From Bacteroidota bacterium (GTDB lineage Bacteria > Bacteroidota > Bacteroidia > Flavobacteriales_D > Crocinitomicaceae): 64,000 nucleotides of DNA. Within the stretch, counting starts at the first letter, position 1, and each line of letters begins with the position of its first letter. Under the pieces are notes generated by a model, which was given only the letters and a program-made list of their open reading frames with translations, ran no database searches and was not told where the DNA came from. Where the stretch lies: the NCBI GenBank assembly GCA_016192075.1, contig JACPUU010000018.1, positions 62,001-126,000 on the forward strand, given 5' to 3'. Of this stretch, positions 3,219 through 52,779 are shown in pieces. A program made the translations under genes and the position numbers.

Positions 3219-3500
3219 TTTCGTTTTTTAGTTCTGATAACCCGTGTGCGTGTTATGCTTCGTTTCGTATAAACACAAAATAACGATTATTTAATCAATA
3301 TTCGACTATTTTTTAGACATATTTTTGTTAATCAACTGATAATGTGACAAATTATTTTTTAGATTTGCAGCCTCCAAACGACTCTTTGGGTGTTATTCTG
3401 ACATCCTTAAATTCCAGAAAAACGAGATTTTACAGGTTTTAACAAGCTGGTCACAATCCCGGAGCATCGGGAGTGACCCCGTTCAAAAAACAATCGAAAA
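3219..3500. other. Intergenic region between dnaE and the ORF6N cluster
   Basis: This 282-nt divergent region is AT-rich. It contains no ATG on the minus strand within about 90 nt upstream of the dnaE coding start. On the plus strand TAGATTTG at 3360-3367 matches the Bacteroidota -7 consensus TAnnTTTG, but no good -33 TTG lies at the expected distance. It also holds the hairpin at 3449-3478. Confidence 0.4.
3449..3478 (+). promoter_or_regulatory. Leader inverted repeat with GGTCAC half-sites upstream of ORF6N gene 1
   Basis: GGTCAC-aa-TCCCG, loop GAGCAT, CGGGA-GTGACC forms a two-part hairpin 22 nt before the ATG at 3501. The outer half-site GGTCACaa/GTGACC is the same as in the palindrome inside the gene it precedes (3709-3725). 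The inner CCCG/CGGG part resembles common dispersed GC-rich palindromes. It could be an operator, an RNA hairpin or a repeat; the sequence does not decide. Confidence 0.4.
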
Positions 3501-4082
3501 ATGACTCAAAAGAATAACATTATCCCTGATGAAATATTGCTGACAAAAATCTATTTCATCCGCGGGCAAAAAGTGATGCTGGATCGCGATTTGGCAGAGT
3601 TGTATCAAACTGAAACAAAAAAACTCAAGCAGGCAGTGAAACGAAACGCCAGCCGATTTCCCGAAGACTTTATGTTTGAATTACGTTCGGATGAATATGC
3701 GAACTTGAGGTCACAAATTGTGACCTCAAGTCAAAACTGGGGTGGTTCACGTTATATGCCTATGGCTTTCACAGAGCAAGGTATTACCATGCTTTCGTGC
3801 GTTCTTAACAGTCCAAAAGCCATTGATGTAAACATTCGGATCATTCGCGTTTTTACACGCATGCGCGAAATGATACTCACACATAAAGACCTTTTATTGG
3901 AAATAGAAGAAATCCGAAAAAAGATGATCAGCCAGGATGAACGCCTGCCTGACTGCGCCAAGCAGACAGGCATCGATATGGTTCTGGATTATCTGACCCA
4001 ATTCATTACCCATAATGAATCAGAATTGGAAAGACAAACAATTGGATTCAAAACAAAAAAGATTAAACAAAATAAACCGTGA
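3501..4082 (+). CDS. ORF6N-domain DNA-binding protein, tandem copy 1
   Basis: A protein of 193 residues. Residues about 10-100 match the ORF6N domain, a phage- and KilA-N-associated presumed DNA-binding domain: KIYFIRGQKVMLDRDLAELY, a basic segment LKQAVKRNASRFPEDFMFEL, then GGSRYMPMAFTEQG. The C-terminal part is a charged likely coiled coil (LLLEIEEIRKKM) followed by a conserved tail DYLTQFITHNESELERQTIGFK. It contains the central inverted repeat (3703-3731) and an in-frame 27-nt palindromic insertion encoding LPDCAKQTG. Its stop overlaps the start of the next copy (GTGA). Its biological role is unknown. Such genes are common in Bacteroidota chromosomes outside prophages, and no phage gene is nearby. 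Confidence 0.85.
   Translation: MTQKNNIIPDEILLTKIYFIRGQKVMLDRDLAELYQTETKKLKQAVKRNASRFPEDFMFELRSDEYANLRSQIVTSSQNWGGSRYMPMAFTEQGITMLSCVLNSPKAIDVNIRIIRVFTRMREMILTHKDLLLEIEEIRKKMISQDERLPDCAKQTGIDMVLDYLTQFITHNESELERQTIGFKTKKIKQNKP
3703..3731 (+). repeat. Central 14-1-14 inverted repeat in ORF6N gene 1
   Basis: The left arm ACTTGAGGTCACAA, one spacer base A, and the right arm TTGTGACCTCAAGT pair perfectly. In frame this gives LRSQIVTSS. It is the same length and codon register as the repeats at 4281-4309, 4861-4889 and 52397-52425. Confidence 0.9.
3946..3972 (+). repeat. 27-nt palindromic insertion in ORF6N gene 1
   Basis: TGCCTGaCTGC, loop GCCAA, GCAGaCAGGCA, with one A.A mismatch. It encodes LPDCAKQTG between DER and ID. 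Copy 2 reads DERID directly without it, so the element appears as a clean 9-codon insertion. Related copies lie at 5099-5125, 51853-51875 and 52153-52177. Confidence 0.8.
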
Positions 4083-4612
4083 AAAGAGAATCAGACTTAA
4101 TTCCGGACGAAGTATTGCTGACAAAAATCTACTTCATCCGCGGGCAAAAAGTGATGTTGGATCGCGATTTGGCTCAACTATATGGAGTTGAAACCAAACG
4201 ATTGAAAGAACAGGTGCGTAGAAACATTACACGTTTTCCGGAAGACTTTATGTTTGAATTAAGTCCCGAAGAGACTAAAAACTTGAGGTCGCAAATTGCG
4301 ACCTCAAGTCAAAATTGGGGCGGTTCACGCTATCTACCCATGGTTTTCACTGAACATGGCGTACTCATGTTATCCTCCATTCTAAACAGTGAACAGGCTA
4401 TCAATGTCAATATTCGCATCATGCGTCTGTTTACCAAAATGCGGGAAATACTAATGACCCACAAAGACCTGTTGCTGGAACTCGAAGAAATTCGCAAAAG
4501 AATGACTGTTCAGGATGAACGAATTGATTTAGTATTTGACTATCTGACGCAGTTTATTACAAAAGATGAAACGGAATCGGAGCGGAGGAAGATTGGGTTT
4601 AAGTCCAAATAG
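4079..4612 (+). CDS. ORF6N-domain DNA-binding protein, tandem copy 2
   Basis: A 177-residue paralogue that starts at GTG (4079), overlapping the TGA of copy 1, so the two are translationally coupled. It has the same domain order: KIYFIRGQKVMLDRDLAQLYGVETKRLKEQVRRNITRFPEDFMFEL, then LRSQIATSSQNWGGSRYLPMVFTEHG, a coiled coil and the FITKDETESERRKIGFK tail. It lacks the LPDC..QTG insertion present in copies 1 and 3. Its 5' half is nearly identical to copy 1 (for example 3539-3596 against the matching stretch near 4117-4174). Its 3' half is nearly identical to copy 3 (59 identical nt at 4436-4494 and 5013-5071). This mosaic indicates recent duplication with gene conversion. Confidence 0.85.
   Translation: MKRESDLIPDEVLLTKIYFIRGQKVMLDRDLAQLYGVETKRLKEQVRRNITRFPEDFMFELSPEETKNLRSQIATSSQNWGGSRYLPMVFTEHGVLMLSSILNSEQAINVNIRIMRLFTKMREILMTHKDLLLELEEIRKRMTVQDERIDLVFDYLTQFITKDETESERRKIGFKSK
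4281..4309 (+). repeat. Central 14-1-14 inverted repeat in ORF6N gene 2
   Basis: The left arm ACTTGAGGTCGCAA, spacer A, and the right arm TTGCGACCTCAAGT pair perfectly. It differs from copy 1 by a compensated A:T to G:C pair (TCA/GTG becomes TCG/GCG), which changes Val to Ala in the second arm. The half-site AGGTCGC also occurs in the TCGCGA palindrome at 489-508. Confidence 0.9.
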
Positions 4613-4658
4613 AAATCCAGCTCTAACAAATTGTGATTATCAAAAAGGAATTTATACT

Positions 4659-5219
4659 ATGACAACAAAAGAAATTGTAATACCTGAAGAAATGCTGCTA
4701 AGTAAAATTTACGTAATTCGGGGGCAGAAAGTGATGTTAGACAGAGACCTGGCGGAGTTATTCCAGGTAAAGCCATTCAGGTTGCGCGAACAAGTGAAAA
4801 GAAACCTGGTCAAATTCCCCCAGCATTTCATGTTTAAACTTGATAAACAAGAAGTTAGATTGATGGTATCGCAAAATGCGATACCATCACATCAATCCCT
4901 TGGAGGCCAGTTACCTTACGTTTTCACCGAATATGGCATCTTACAACTTTCCAATACTTTAAAAAGTGAAACGGCCATCAAAATGAGTATCCGTATTATT
5001 GAACTCTTTGTAAAAATGCGGGAAATACTAATGACCCACAAAGACCTGTTGCTGGAACTCGAAGAAATTCGAAAAAAAATGGCTTCACAAGATGAGCGCC
5101 TGCCTGACTGCGTCTTGCAGACAGGGATTGACTTGGTATTTGATTACCTCACACAGTTTATTACAAAAGATGAAACGGAATTGGAGCGGAGGAAGATTGG
5201 GTTTAAACCGAATTCGTGA
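4659..5219 (+). CDS. ORF6N-domain DNA-binding protein, tandem copy 3
   Basis: This protein has 186 residues from ATG 4659, which follows a purine-rich AAAAAGGAA. A longer in-frame reading from 4566 overlaps copy 2 and is rejected. The N-terminal half has diverged from copies 1 and 2 (ELFQVKPFRLREQVKRNLVKFPQHFMFKL, then GGQLPYVFTEYGILQLSNTL), while the C-terminal half is almost the same as copy 2 at the DNA level. It has its own central inverted repeat with a different arm sequence (4861-4889) and a LPDCVLQTG palindromic insertion. The basic N-terminal module is the likely specificity part and the shared tail the likely oligomerisation part; this is inference. Confidence 0.85.
   Translation: MTTKEIVIPEEMLLSKIYVIRGQKVMLDRDLAELFQVKPFRLREQVKRNLVKFPQHFMFKLDKQEVRLMVSQNAIPSHQSLGGQLPYVFTEYGILQLSNTLKSETAIKMSIRIIELFVKMREILMTHKDLLLELEEIRKKMASQDERLPDCVLQTGIDLVFDYLTQFITKDETELERRKIGFKPNS
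4861..4889 (+). repeat. Central inverted repeat in ORF6N gene 3
   Basis: TGATGGTATCGCA, spacer AAA, TGCGATACCATCA: a perfect 13-bp stem in a 29-nt span, the same span as in the other copies. The arm sequence is wholly different from copies 1 and 2, and so is the encoded peptide (LMVSQNAIPS), yet the symmetry is kept. Confidence 0.9.
5099..5125 (+). repeat. Palindromic insertion in ORF6N gene 3
   Basis: CCTGCCTGACTGCGTCTTGC followed by AGACAGG, encoding LPDCVLQTG in frame. It matches 23 of 25 bases of the reverse complement of 52153-52177. Confidence 0.75.
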
Positions 5220-51877: not shown

Positions 51878-51964
51878 TTGAAAAACAGGGGATTAAAGAA
51901 TGACGTGATTGTTCCGGATGAAATGTTACAGCATACGGTTTTTGAAATTCGTGGAAGATTGTAA
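51878..51964 (+). pseudogene. Truncated ORF6N gene remnant (28 codons)
   Basis: From TTG 51878 it reads KNRGLKNDVIVPDEML, then QHTVFEIRGRL and a stop. Residues 5-24 align with the start of the intact gene at 52183 (KNDVIVPDEMLVRKIYEFRG). The homology breaks at the RGE/RGR position. The TAA is followed at once by a 19-bp-stem hairpin (51965-52006). Both this copy and the 52183 gene share the same upstream context (AATCCCC...GCAGGTATTGAAAAA), so it is a duplicated 5' end whose body was deleted or replaced by the hairpin. Confidence 0.75.
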
Positions 51965-52006
51965 GCGTAAGTAAGGGGCGGAAAATCTTCCGCCCCTTAC
52001 TTACGC
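51965..52006. repeat. Long perfect hairpin fused to ORF6N remnant
   Basis: GCGTAAGTAAGGGGCGGAA, loop AATC, TTCCGCCCCTTACTTACGC: a 19-bp perfect stem beginning right after the TAA of the remnant. The GGGGCGGA part resembles the hairpins at 88-107. There is no T-tract. It may be a mobile palindrome inserted into the gene. Confidence 0.8.
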
Positions 52007-52182: not shown

Positions 52183-52779
52183 TTGAAAAATATGGTGTCA
52201 AAGAATGATGTGATTGTTCCGGACGAAATGCTGGTTCGCAAAATTTATGAGTTTCGGGGTGAAAAAGTAATGTTAGATAGAGATCTGGCGGAACTTTATG
52301 GTGTTGAGACAAAGTATCTGAAAAGACAAGTGAATAGAAACATCGAGCGTTTTCCGATAGATTTTATGTTTGAATTAACCGAAACTGAGTTTGAAATTTT
52401 GAGGTGCCAAATTGGCACCTCAAAACATAAAAGTCTTGAAAAAAGTGACCTGAAAGCAAGTAATACTGCCGAAAATCGTGGTGGTTCCCGCTATTTACCC
52501 ATGGTATTCACCGAACAAGGAATCGCCATGCTATCCAGTGTATTAAACAGTCCGCAGGCCATTCAAACCAACATCCGTATCATGCGCTTTTTCACCCGCA
52601 TGCGCAAAATGATTCTCCAGCACGAAGAACTTCTTAAATTCATTCAAATTGTTGAACAAAAAACGGATGGAAACGCCAAAAGCATTGAATTGCTTTTTGA
52701 GTATATGGATGTCTTAATGGAGCAAAAAGAAAAAAACCAATCACGTAAAGCAATTGGGTTCAAGACGAAGAAAAAATGA
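52183..52779 (+). CDS. ORF6N-domain DNA-binding protein, copy 4
   Basis: A 198-residue protein from TTG 52183, or 195 from ATG 52192. The ORF6N domain spans about 8-125: KIYEFRGEKVMLDRDLAELYGVETKYLKRQVNRNIERFPIDFMFEL, then LRCQIGTSKHKSLEKSDLKA with a short insertion, then NRGGSRYLPMVFTEQGIAML. The C-terminal coiled coil and the RKAIGFKTKKK tail match the cluster at 3.5-5.2 kb. It has its own central inverted repeat (52397-52425) with arms unlike those of copies 1-3. The tail lacks the LPDC insertion; instead the same palindrome lies immediately upstream. It is convergent with kbl, with stops 2 nt apart. Confidence 0.85.
   Translation: MKNMVSKNDVIVPDEMLVRKIYEFRGEKVMLDRDLAELYGVETKYLKRQVNRNIERFPIDFMFELTETEFEILRCQIGTSKHKSLEKSDLKASNTAENRGGSRYLPMVFTEQGIAMLSSVLNSPQAIQTNIRIMRFFTRMRKMILQHEELLKFIQIVEQKTDGNAKSIELLFEYMDVLMEQKEKNQSRKAIGFKTKKK
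52397..52425 (+). repeat. Central 14-1-14 inverted repeat in ORF6N gene 4
   Basis: TTTTGAGGTGCCAA, spacer A, TTGGCACCTCAAAA: perfect. It encodes LRCQIGTSK. Relative to copies 1 and 2 the middle pairs have changed together (TCA/GTG or TCG/GCG becomes TGC/GGC), altering Ser to Cys in one arm and Val/Ala to Gly in the other. Confidence 0.9.

Follow-up and report, generated by a model that had tools for sequence, protein, structure and literature searches.

Palindromic protein-binding sites can lie inside genes. In Bacillus subtilis, parS occurs in spo0J/parB, so that the palindromic site of a DNA-binding protein sits inside that protein's own coding sequence. The operator lacO2 in lacZ is likewise intragenic, and repressor sites in coding DNA allow looping. 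Repetitive extragenic palindromic (REP) sequences are short palindromes that cluster around RAYT genes. Here, we describe a palindrome of about 29 bp that recurs at one codon register inside genes of the ORF6N domain family, four of which lie in the window, a stretch of 64,000 nucleotides from a Bacteroidota bacterium (GenBank assembly GCA_016192075.1, contig JACPUU010000018.1, positions 62,001 to 126,000 of the forward strand). The palindrome is a nucleotide-level element, conserved as DNA and not as protein. We give about an even chance to the reading that the encoded protein binds it, so that the stretch coding for the protein's DNA-binding domain would also hold its target site.

We know of no precedent for an overlap between coding DNA and a conserved, covarying palindrome in several predicted DNA-binding families. 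Searches of titles and abstract openings in the open-licence literature, several of them confined to the best hits, gave no description of conserved covarying coding palindromes in predicted DNA-binding protein families. In passages from PMC6591296 and PMC5571608, "palindrom" appears only within the name CRISPR; in one from PMC3058096 the palindrome is a viral termination signal, and in one from PMC12470788 it concerns the half-sites of another fungal factor class. Perfect coding inverted repeats of up to 284 bp are described, according to the abstract opening of PMC6649704, in mitochondrial genes of four nematomorph species.

The palindromes in the four ORF6N genes of the window

The four genes are members of the ORF6N domain family PF10543, scoring 96.4-131.1 bits against a Pfam cut-off of 27.8, and a search of the whole genome returned these four ORF6N matches. 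All are on the + strand: gene 1 at 3501..4082 (E 2.7e-37; its open reading frame (ORF) has the same limits, 3501-4082), gene 2 at 4079..4612 (E 1.8e-38), gene 3 at 4659..5219 (E 1.2e-27; we took the ATG at 4659 as its start, the listed ORF beginning at 4566), and gene 4 at 52183..52779 (E 1.3e-35). The gene 1 protein has an additional sub-threshold Pfam match to Phage_pRha.

A sequence-only reading of the window had placed four inverted repeats in these genes at a common codon register. The repeat scan, direct reading and Pfam bore this out, and the spans it gave, 14-1-14 for copies 1, 2 and 4 and 13-3-13 for copy 3, were correct. Palindrome 1, ACTTGAGGTCACAA A TTGTGACCTCAAGT, lies at 3703..3731 and forms 13 of 13 pairs at the family register. 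Palindrome 2, ACTTGAGGTCGCAA A TTGCGACCTCAAGT, is a perfect inverted repeat at 4281..4309. Palindrome 3, TGATGGTATCGCA AAA TGCGATACCATCA, at 4861..4889, has a variant core and forms 12 of 13 pairs at the register. Palindrome 4, TTTTGAGGTGCCAA A TTGGCACCTCAAAA, forms 13 of 13 pairs at the register; its span at 52397..52425 was read from the sequence, and the inverted-repeat scan gives 52397-52425 as part of a longer imperfect pair. In all four genes the palindrome is centred on the base that opens the codon following the Q of L-R-S-Q. The sequence-only reading had also claimed that the differences between copies change amino acids on both sides. This holds for copies 3 and 4; between copies 1 and 2 the 5' difference (TCA/TCG) is silent, which leaves V/A as the only amino acid change. 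The looser pattern GGTNNCAANTTGNNACC has three sites in the 4.65-Mb genome, all inside ORF6N genes of the window, against one for its reversed control.

Pairing and covariation across ORF6N genes

We gathered ORF6N genes by homology and not by motif. The sample comprised named loci (the best 80 of 300), some of the matches from 395 genomes of the window's phylum (probably Bacteroidota, to which most of the named relatives belong; 117 of the 395 have an ORF6N match), genomes from the same phylum as an Acidobacteriota record (38 of 149 with a match), plasmids and viral contigs. With the register set by protein alignment and 13 Watson-Crick pairs possible, the 228 distinct genes formed 13 pairs in 91 cases, 12 in 65, 11 in 40, 10 in 9, 8-9 in 10 and at most 5 in 13. 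Hence, at least 10 of 13 pairs form at a single codon register in 205 of the 228 genes. The sequence-only reading had proposed a codon-matched null as its check. We recoded each gene synonymously with its own codon usage, preserving the amino acids, and the mean fell to 5.92 pairs, compared with 11.46 observed (p < 0.01 in 186 of 228 genes; 10 genes at or under their own null).

Without regard to position in the gene, at least 11/13 pairs were reached by a palindrome in 222 of 243 ORF6N genes (227 loci), and the full 13/13 in 103. Control DNA from the same loci, 528,210 bp lying more than 700 bp from any ORF6N gene, held 34 palindromes of at least 11/13 and none of 13/13; one of these 34 has the CAA.TTG core. 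The symmetry is not confined to the window genome; such confinement would, by the terms of the sequence-only reading, have refuted its proposal. At least 11/13 pairs form in 17 of 20 genes of the Acidobacteriota set, in plasmid genes of Sulfuricurvum, Treponema and Butyrivibrio, and in 10 of 15 viral-contig genes. Register pairing is weak in plasmid genes of Legionella and Haliovirga (8 and 9 of 13; L218, L220).

Covariation was measured in 85 of the first 90 of 118 diverse genes (83 of them distinct), five frame-shifted genes (L195, L200, L205, L209 and L210) having been left out; the relatedness of the sequences is allowed for only through this choice of diverse rows. Paired cells amounted to 91.4% versus 74.6% in shuffles, and the covariation score was 0.443 versus 0.149 (standard deviation 0.010); none of 500 shuffles reached either value, and slid controls scored 0.05-0.09. 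Two-sided changes occupied 172 cells versus 45 in shuffles.

Several of the 13 genes that do not pair at the register carry the palindrome elsewhere. In eight of them (L126, L167, L195, L200, L202, L205, L209 and L210) a palindrome of 10-13 pairs is offset by exactly 2 nt; it is therefore read in another frame and encodes an unrelated peptide such as LVTNCDR. The palindrome of L219 is 6 nt off and keeps the frame, L182 and L208 reach 9/13, and no comparable palindrome was found in L129 and L130. We also selected copies on the core alone (at least 10 of 12 bases). Outer pairs 7-13 were above expectation in the copies from genes (155 distinct), leaders (51) and downstream DNA (120), and the symmetry stopped near position 15. 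Dyad symmetry, as in an operator, is thus conserved at the DNA level in core-selected copies, against the codon null and in covariation. Because the codon null is beaten and copies exist in other frames and in non-coding DNA, the constraint acts on nucleotides. The earlier proposal of a constraint above the protein level is strongly supported by the same evidence, the copies in flanking non-coding DNA included, and by the covariation.

The core of most ORF6N genes is TCRCAA-N-TTGYGA, and the outer arms around it fall into subtypes A (TTGG), B (TYAA), C (TTGA) and D (GGT). The arm subtype matched the type of the protein loop that follows in 48/49 A, 31/35 B, 101/103 C and 7/7 D genes (187/194 in a named class), with loop and arm classes that were defined after the sequences had been seen. 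This count covers 215 of the 228 genes, 13 with a register score below 8 having been dropped, and 21 of the 215 fall in the arm class "other". Several exceptions (L016, L114, L186 and L198) have, by eye, a second palindrome of the fitting type nearer the loop. The differences between apparent Flavobacterium orthologues, again by eye, are concentrated in a middle segment with the palindrome, the two ends being nearly identical.

Copies outside the register and in other gene families

The density of palindromes with at least 11/13 pairs is 0.66 per kb over the 300 bp that precede ORF6N genes and 1.60 per kb downstream, versus 0.066 per kb at 700-1500 bp. The upstream enrichment is about tenfold, yet it stems from a minority of loci: within 400 bp, 46 sites were found in 38 of 227 loci. 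The exact CAA-N-TTG core is present in 21 of these sites, 16 of which sit 23-76 nt before the first ATG of the frame. In the viral locus L127 the same unusual core occurs in the gene and 76 nt upstream of it. With upstream copies in a minority of loci, a promoter-only operator is insufficient. In the window itself, a candidate half-site pair, GGTCAC...GTGACC, lies at 3449..3478, 22 nt before the start codon of gene 1, as a single weak case. Downstream of ORF6N genes there are 109 sites in 44 loci, 83 of them with the core, mainly in Flavobacterium arrays. Up to seven ORF6N-type palindromes of mixed subtype stand in non-coding DNA directly 3' of Flavobacterium ORF6N genes (L076:3520-3800, L066:3520-3775 and others).

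The core GGTCRCAANTTGYGACC occurs at 65 sites in 47 of the 395 genomes, with 1-4 sites per positive genome and none for the reversed control; 44 of the 47 belong to the 117 ORF6N-positive genomes and 3 to the 278 others. Among the matches listed, 36 sites fall inside an ORF6N match and 9 within about 260 bp of one. Inspection of the remaining 20 placed 10 in ORFs with a profile match, 2 adjoining such ORFs and 6 in what, by eye, seem to be fragments, while two (L364 and L375) seem solo. In all, an ORF6N gene or apparent fragment contains or is close to 63 of the 65 sites. Across the 395 genomes, these 65 strict core sites do not support a genome-wide dispersed repeat.

Viral contigs (L241-L360) hold at least 120 matches to the ORF6N core versus 22 to a scrambled palindrome. 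Of the 120 listed, 3 lie in ORF6N ORFs and 90 outside called ORFs; intergenic phage hairpins with the core often follow closely on a stop codon. A run of five T or A adjoins 59 of these 90. Because they lie outside ORFs with a T or A run alongside, these matches look terminator-like.

RhuM genes (PF13310) were found to contain a coding palindrome of their own. We therefore examined Bro-N (PF02498) and KilA-N (PF04383) genes as well; we infer that RhuM belongs with the KilA-N, Bro-N and ORF6N domains. Palindromes of at least 11/13 pairs were present in 18/26 RhuM, 22/30 Bro-N and 14/23 KilA-N loci, mostly at a family-specific place, in a count open to both centre parities and to any position in the match and some 200 bp more, so that it includes some off register (such as L403, L429 and the second hits of L432 and L472). 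The cores differ by family: TCGAA|TTCGA in KilA-N genes (as in TTTAAACCCGTCGAA|TTCGACGGGTTTA), GAC|GTC or GAT|ATC in DinD-like Bro-N genes (as in GACCATTTTGTTGAC|GTCAACAAAATGGTC), and often CGGAA-N-TTCCG in RhuM genes, of which GAACTGTTCGGAA-N-TTCCGAACAGTTC is an example. Other Bro-N genes have odd-centred palindromes such as CAACTGTCGACAA-N-TTGTCGACAGTTG. In L412, the RhuM gene of the window genome, and in L417 the palindrome stands in a frame that differs from that of other RhuM genes.

The KilA-N palindrome is in codon register, and its codons covary with their reverse complements (LV|DQ, SL|EG, PI|DG, MV|HH, YG|AI). The best palindrome (at least 10/13) lies at this family place in 31 of 34 distinct viral KilA-N loci. 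The codon null was exceeded in KilA-N (11.92 observed versus 7.56, 53 genes), DinD-like (12.25 versus 8.12, 8 genes) and RhuM genes (11.55 versus 8.33, 11 genes), with registers set by regular expressions, which match just a part of the loci, and with the RhuM centre set from the palindrome itself, by majority. The dinD gene of E. coli K-12 has 11/13 pairs. For PF09669 (Rha), 7 of 148 genomes have a match, one of them over the cut-off, and several of the matches are ORF6N genes.

Palindromes of one family also occur singly beside genes of another: a DinD-type site upstream of a KilA-N gene (L503:1397), an ORF6N-type site upstream of a KilA-N gene (L458, - strand, 1364), and a KilA-N-type site upstream of a Bro-N gene, directly after an N6-methylase gene (L432:1411). 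These are apparently remnants of genes that have been replaced. ORF6N, Bro-N and KilA-N genes adjoin DNA-methylase genes (L213, L432, L472), and in L213 the ORF6N gene has a methyltransferase gene on one side and a restriction subunit S gene on the other.

Other repeats were seen in the window. A 26-nt interrupted palindrome, CTGCCTGACTGCG..GCAGACAGG, is in frame in gene 1 (3945-3970) and gene 3 (5100-5125), but gene 2 lacks it; the window genome has a third copy at another place. Just 5' of the intact gene 4, at 51890-52006, what looks by eye like a truncated ORF6N N-terminus runs into a 19-bp perfect inverted repeat (51965-52006). A gene resembling that for DNA polymerase III alpha contains a perfect 15+15 nt palindrome without spacer at 660-689 and a 10+10 palindrome at 489-508.

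Proposed self-recognition, its rivals and known systems

Self-recognition is the simplest account of the dyad, the family core, the position, the flank copies and the link between subtype and loop, and it is our best inference from these sequences. On this account about 29-31 bp of double-stranded DNA, a near-fixed core flanked by symmetric outer arms, would serve as a recognition element that the encoded protein binds as a symmetric dimer. Occupancy of the site in the gene, and of the leader and downstream copies that some ORF6N genes have, could then autoregulate the gene, by road-block or looping, or mark the locus. As site and DNA-binding domain would be the same nucleotides, specificity and target would move together whenever a module is swapped.

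We looked at where the palindrome falls in the protein. In an AlphaFold2 model of the gene 2 protein (mean predicted local distance difference test, pLDDT, 81.2) it encodes, by coordinates, about residues 68-77, which form the end of helix 63-73 and a low-confidence loop before strand 88-91. In a KilA-N model (87.7) it also encodes about residues 68-77, here helix 70-79, ahead of strands and a helix. The order of elements is similar in the two models. A sequence search of solved structures gave three ORF6N matches (E 0.22-0.98), which we judged to be chance, and no matches for KilA-N, Bro-N/DinD or RhuM. A fold search with the ORF6N model returned nothing at E <= 0.001; its top match was Dachshund (1l8r, probability 0.92, E 0.1).

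Several observations weigh against self-recognition. The Dachshund match is weak, and profile comparison between the palindrome-bearing families found no homology in four of the six pairs (RhuM/KilA-N and RhuM/DinD are not among the four); DNA binding is therefore taken from family annotation. Most ORF6N loci have no upstream copy, and upstream sites without the exact core are AT-rich or terminator-like. The flanks of KilA-N, DinD and RhuM genes show little or no palindrome enrichment, and upstream copies were not seen for RhuM or DinD. In L116 the core is TTCC in the gene but TCAC upstream. Two of the five covariation measures were not above the shuffles (pairs with a two-sided change, 10 versus 8.8; pair types, 24 versus 24.2). 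Finally, one downstream array mixes several outer-arm subtypes, each of them palindromic, and by eye the arrays do not track the subtype of the neighbouring gene. With subtypes mixed in this way, a requirement for structure fits as well as the specificity of one protein.

Such a requirement would follow if the palindrome formed a DNA hairpin or cruciform for recombination, with a short cassette (the palindrome and the loop codons after it) exchanged between paralogues and free-standing copies. The best argument for this structural role is that outer arms differ within one array yet remain complementary. The middle segments that, by eye, distinguish apparent Flavobacterium orthologues, the solo palindromes and short remnants where genes look replaced, and the genes in which, by eye, the loop fits the nearer of two palindromes point the same way. 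However, a pure structure needs neither cores that are conserved and differ by family nor the near-invariant core of ORF6N genes, and no recombinase is linked to the palindrome, no search for one having been made; we consider this explanation unlikely. Template-switch (quasi-palindrome) mutation could keep the arms matched without selection for function. In the abstract opening of PMC8604942, template switching is described as homogenising the arms of inverted repeats in yeast coding genes, and it would yield two-sided changes without mismatched intermediates. It is a mutational route to matched arms that predicts neither a family-specific core nor copies in leaders and 3' flanks, and it leaves unexplained both the retention across phyla and the rarity of comparable palindromes in the 528 kb of control DNA, where 34 reach at least 11/13 and none 13/13. 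We regard it as improbable. A REP-like selfish palindrome multiplying in and around ORF6N genes, as REP does around RAYT genes, seems improbable to a similar degree: the arrays just 3' of Flavobacterium ORF6N genes, the tandem extra copies within genes and the two solo copies suit it, but the palindrome is not dispersed, as 63 of the 65 strict core sites keep to ORF6N genes, apparent fragments or their vicinity.

An mRNA hairpin that acts on translation, decay or termination could form a stem of 13-14 bp in the transcript, and in viral contigs the core often stands beside a T-run, like a terminator. Since G-U pairs are tolerated in an RNA stem, a hairpin in the transcript predicts more G-T than A-C mismatches on the coding strand. 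Over 227 sites we counted 63 G-T and 95 A-C mismatches, and G-T was not in excess in any compartment (G-T/A-C 41/58 in genes, 7/11 in genes in other frames, 24/26 in leaders, 45/79 downstream). In the 85 diverse genes G-U accounted for about 15 of 1079 cells, versus 172 two-sided changes. The lack of a G-U excess speaks against an RNA hairpin, and an Rfam scan of the window at gathering thresholds gave no match. We therefore hold an mRNA hairpin to be highly improbable, and the RNA structure suggested by the sequence-only reading is unsupported. Lastly, a constraint on the protein alone would make the palindrome a symmetric peptide motif, palindromically encoded by chance. Partial conservation of the residues at the site does lift the null, to 5.9-8.3 of 13 pairs, but the null is exceeded in all four families, and the palindromes in other frames, with their unrelated peptides, and those in non-coding DNA contradict this explanation. 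We reject it with near certainty.

Self-recognition might extend beyond ORF6N as a general rule, in which the coding DNA of a KilA-N-like domain holds the domain's own target site, and specificity and site coevolve, each codon with its reverse complement, across at least four families that range from E. coli dinD to phage KilA-N genes. We put this rule somewhat short of an even chance. If true, it would describe an operator that is portable and carries its own address through domain shuffling and horizontal transfer, and coding sequence would suffice for reading binding specificities. Should the palindrome be the protein's own site, the genes of many KilA-N, Bro-N/DinD, ORF6N and RhuM proteins of unknown function could reveal their targets, and what these widespread domains bind would be directly testable, for example with E. 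coli dinD. If it is instead a recombination or mutational element, it would be a strong natural case of DNA-level constraint in coding sequence.

How does the palindrome compare with known systems? Like the nematomorph repeats, it lies in protein-coding sequence, but it is short, fixed in register and found in DNA-binding-domain genes of bacteria and phages. It resembles REP sequences in that short palindromes occur around one gene family, and it differs from them in its fixed codon register within the gene and in not being dispersed over the genome. Sites of the lacO2 type lie in target genes, whereas this palindrome lies in the DNA that codes for the DNA-binding domain of the presumed regulator itself and is conserved across phyla. 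With parS it would share a place within the gene of its DNA-binding protein, as presumed for the palindromes here. No protein of the ParB/Spo0J type is among the four site-bearing proteins of the window, for which Pfam shows ORF6N (and, below threshold in gene 1, Phage_pRha). Moreover, parS is a fixed 16-bp segregation sequence, whereas the arms of the palindromes described here vary and covary, and each family has its own.

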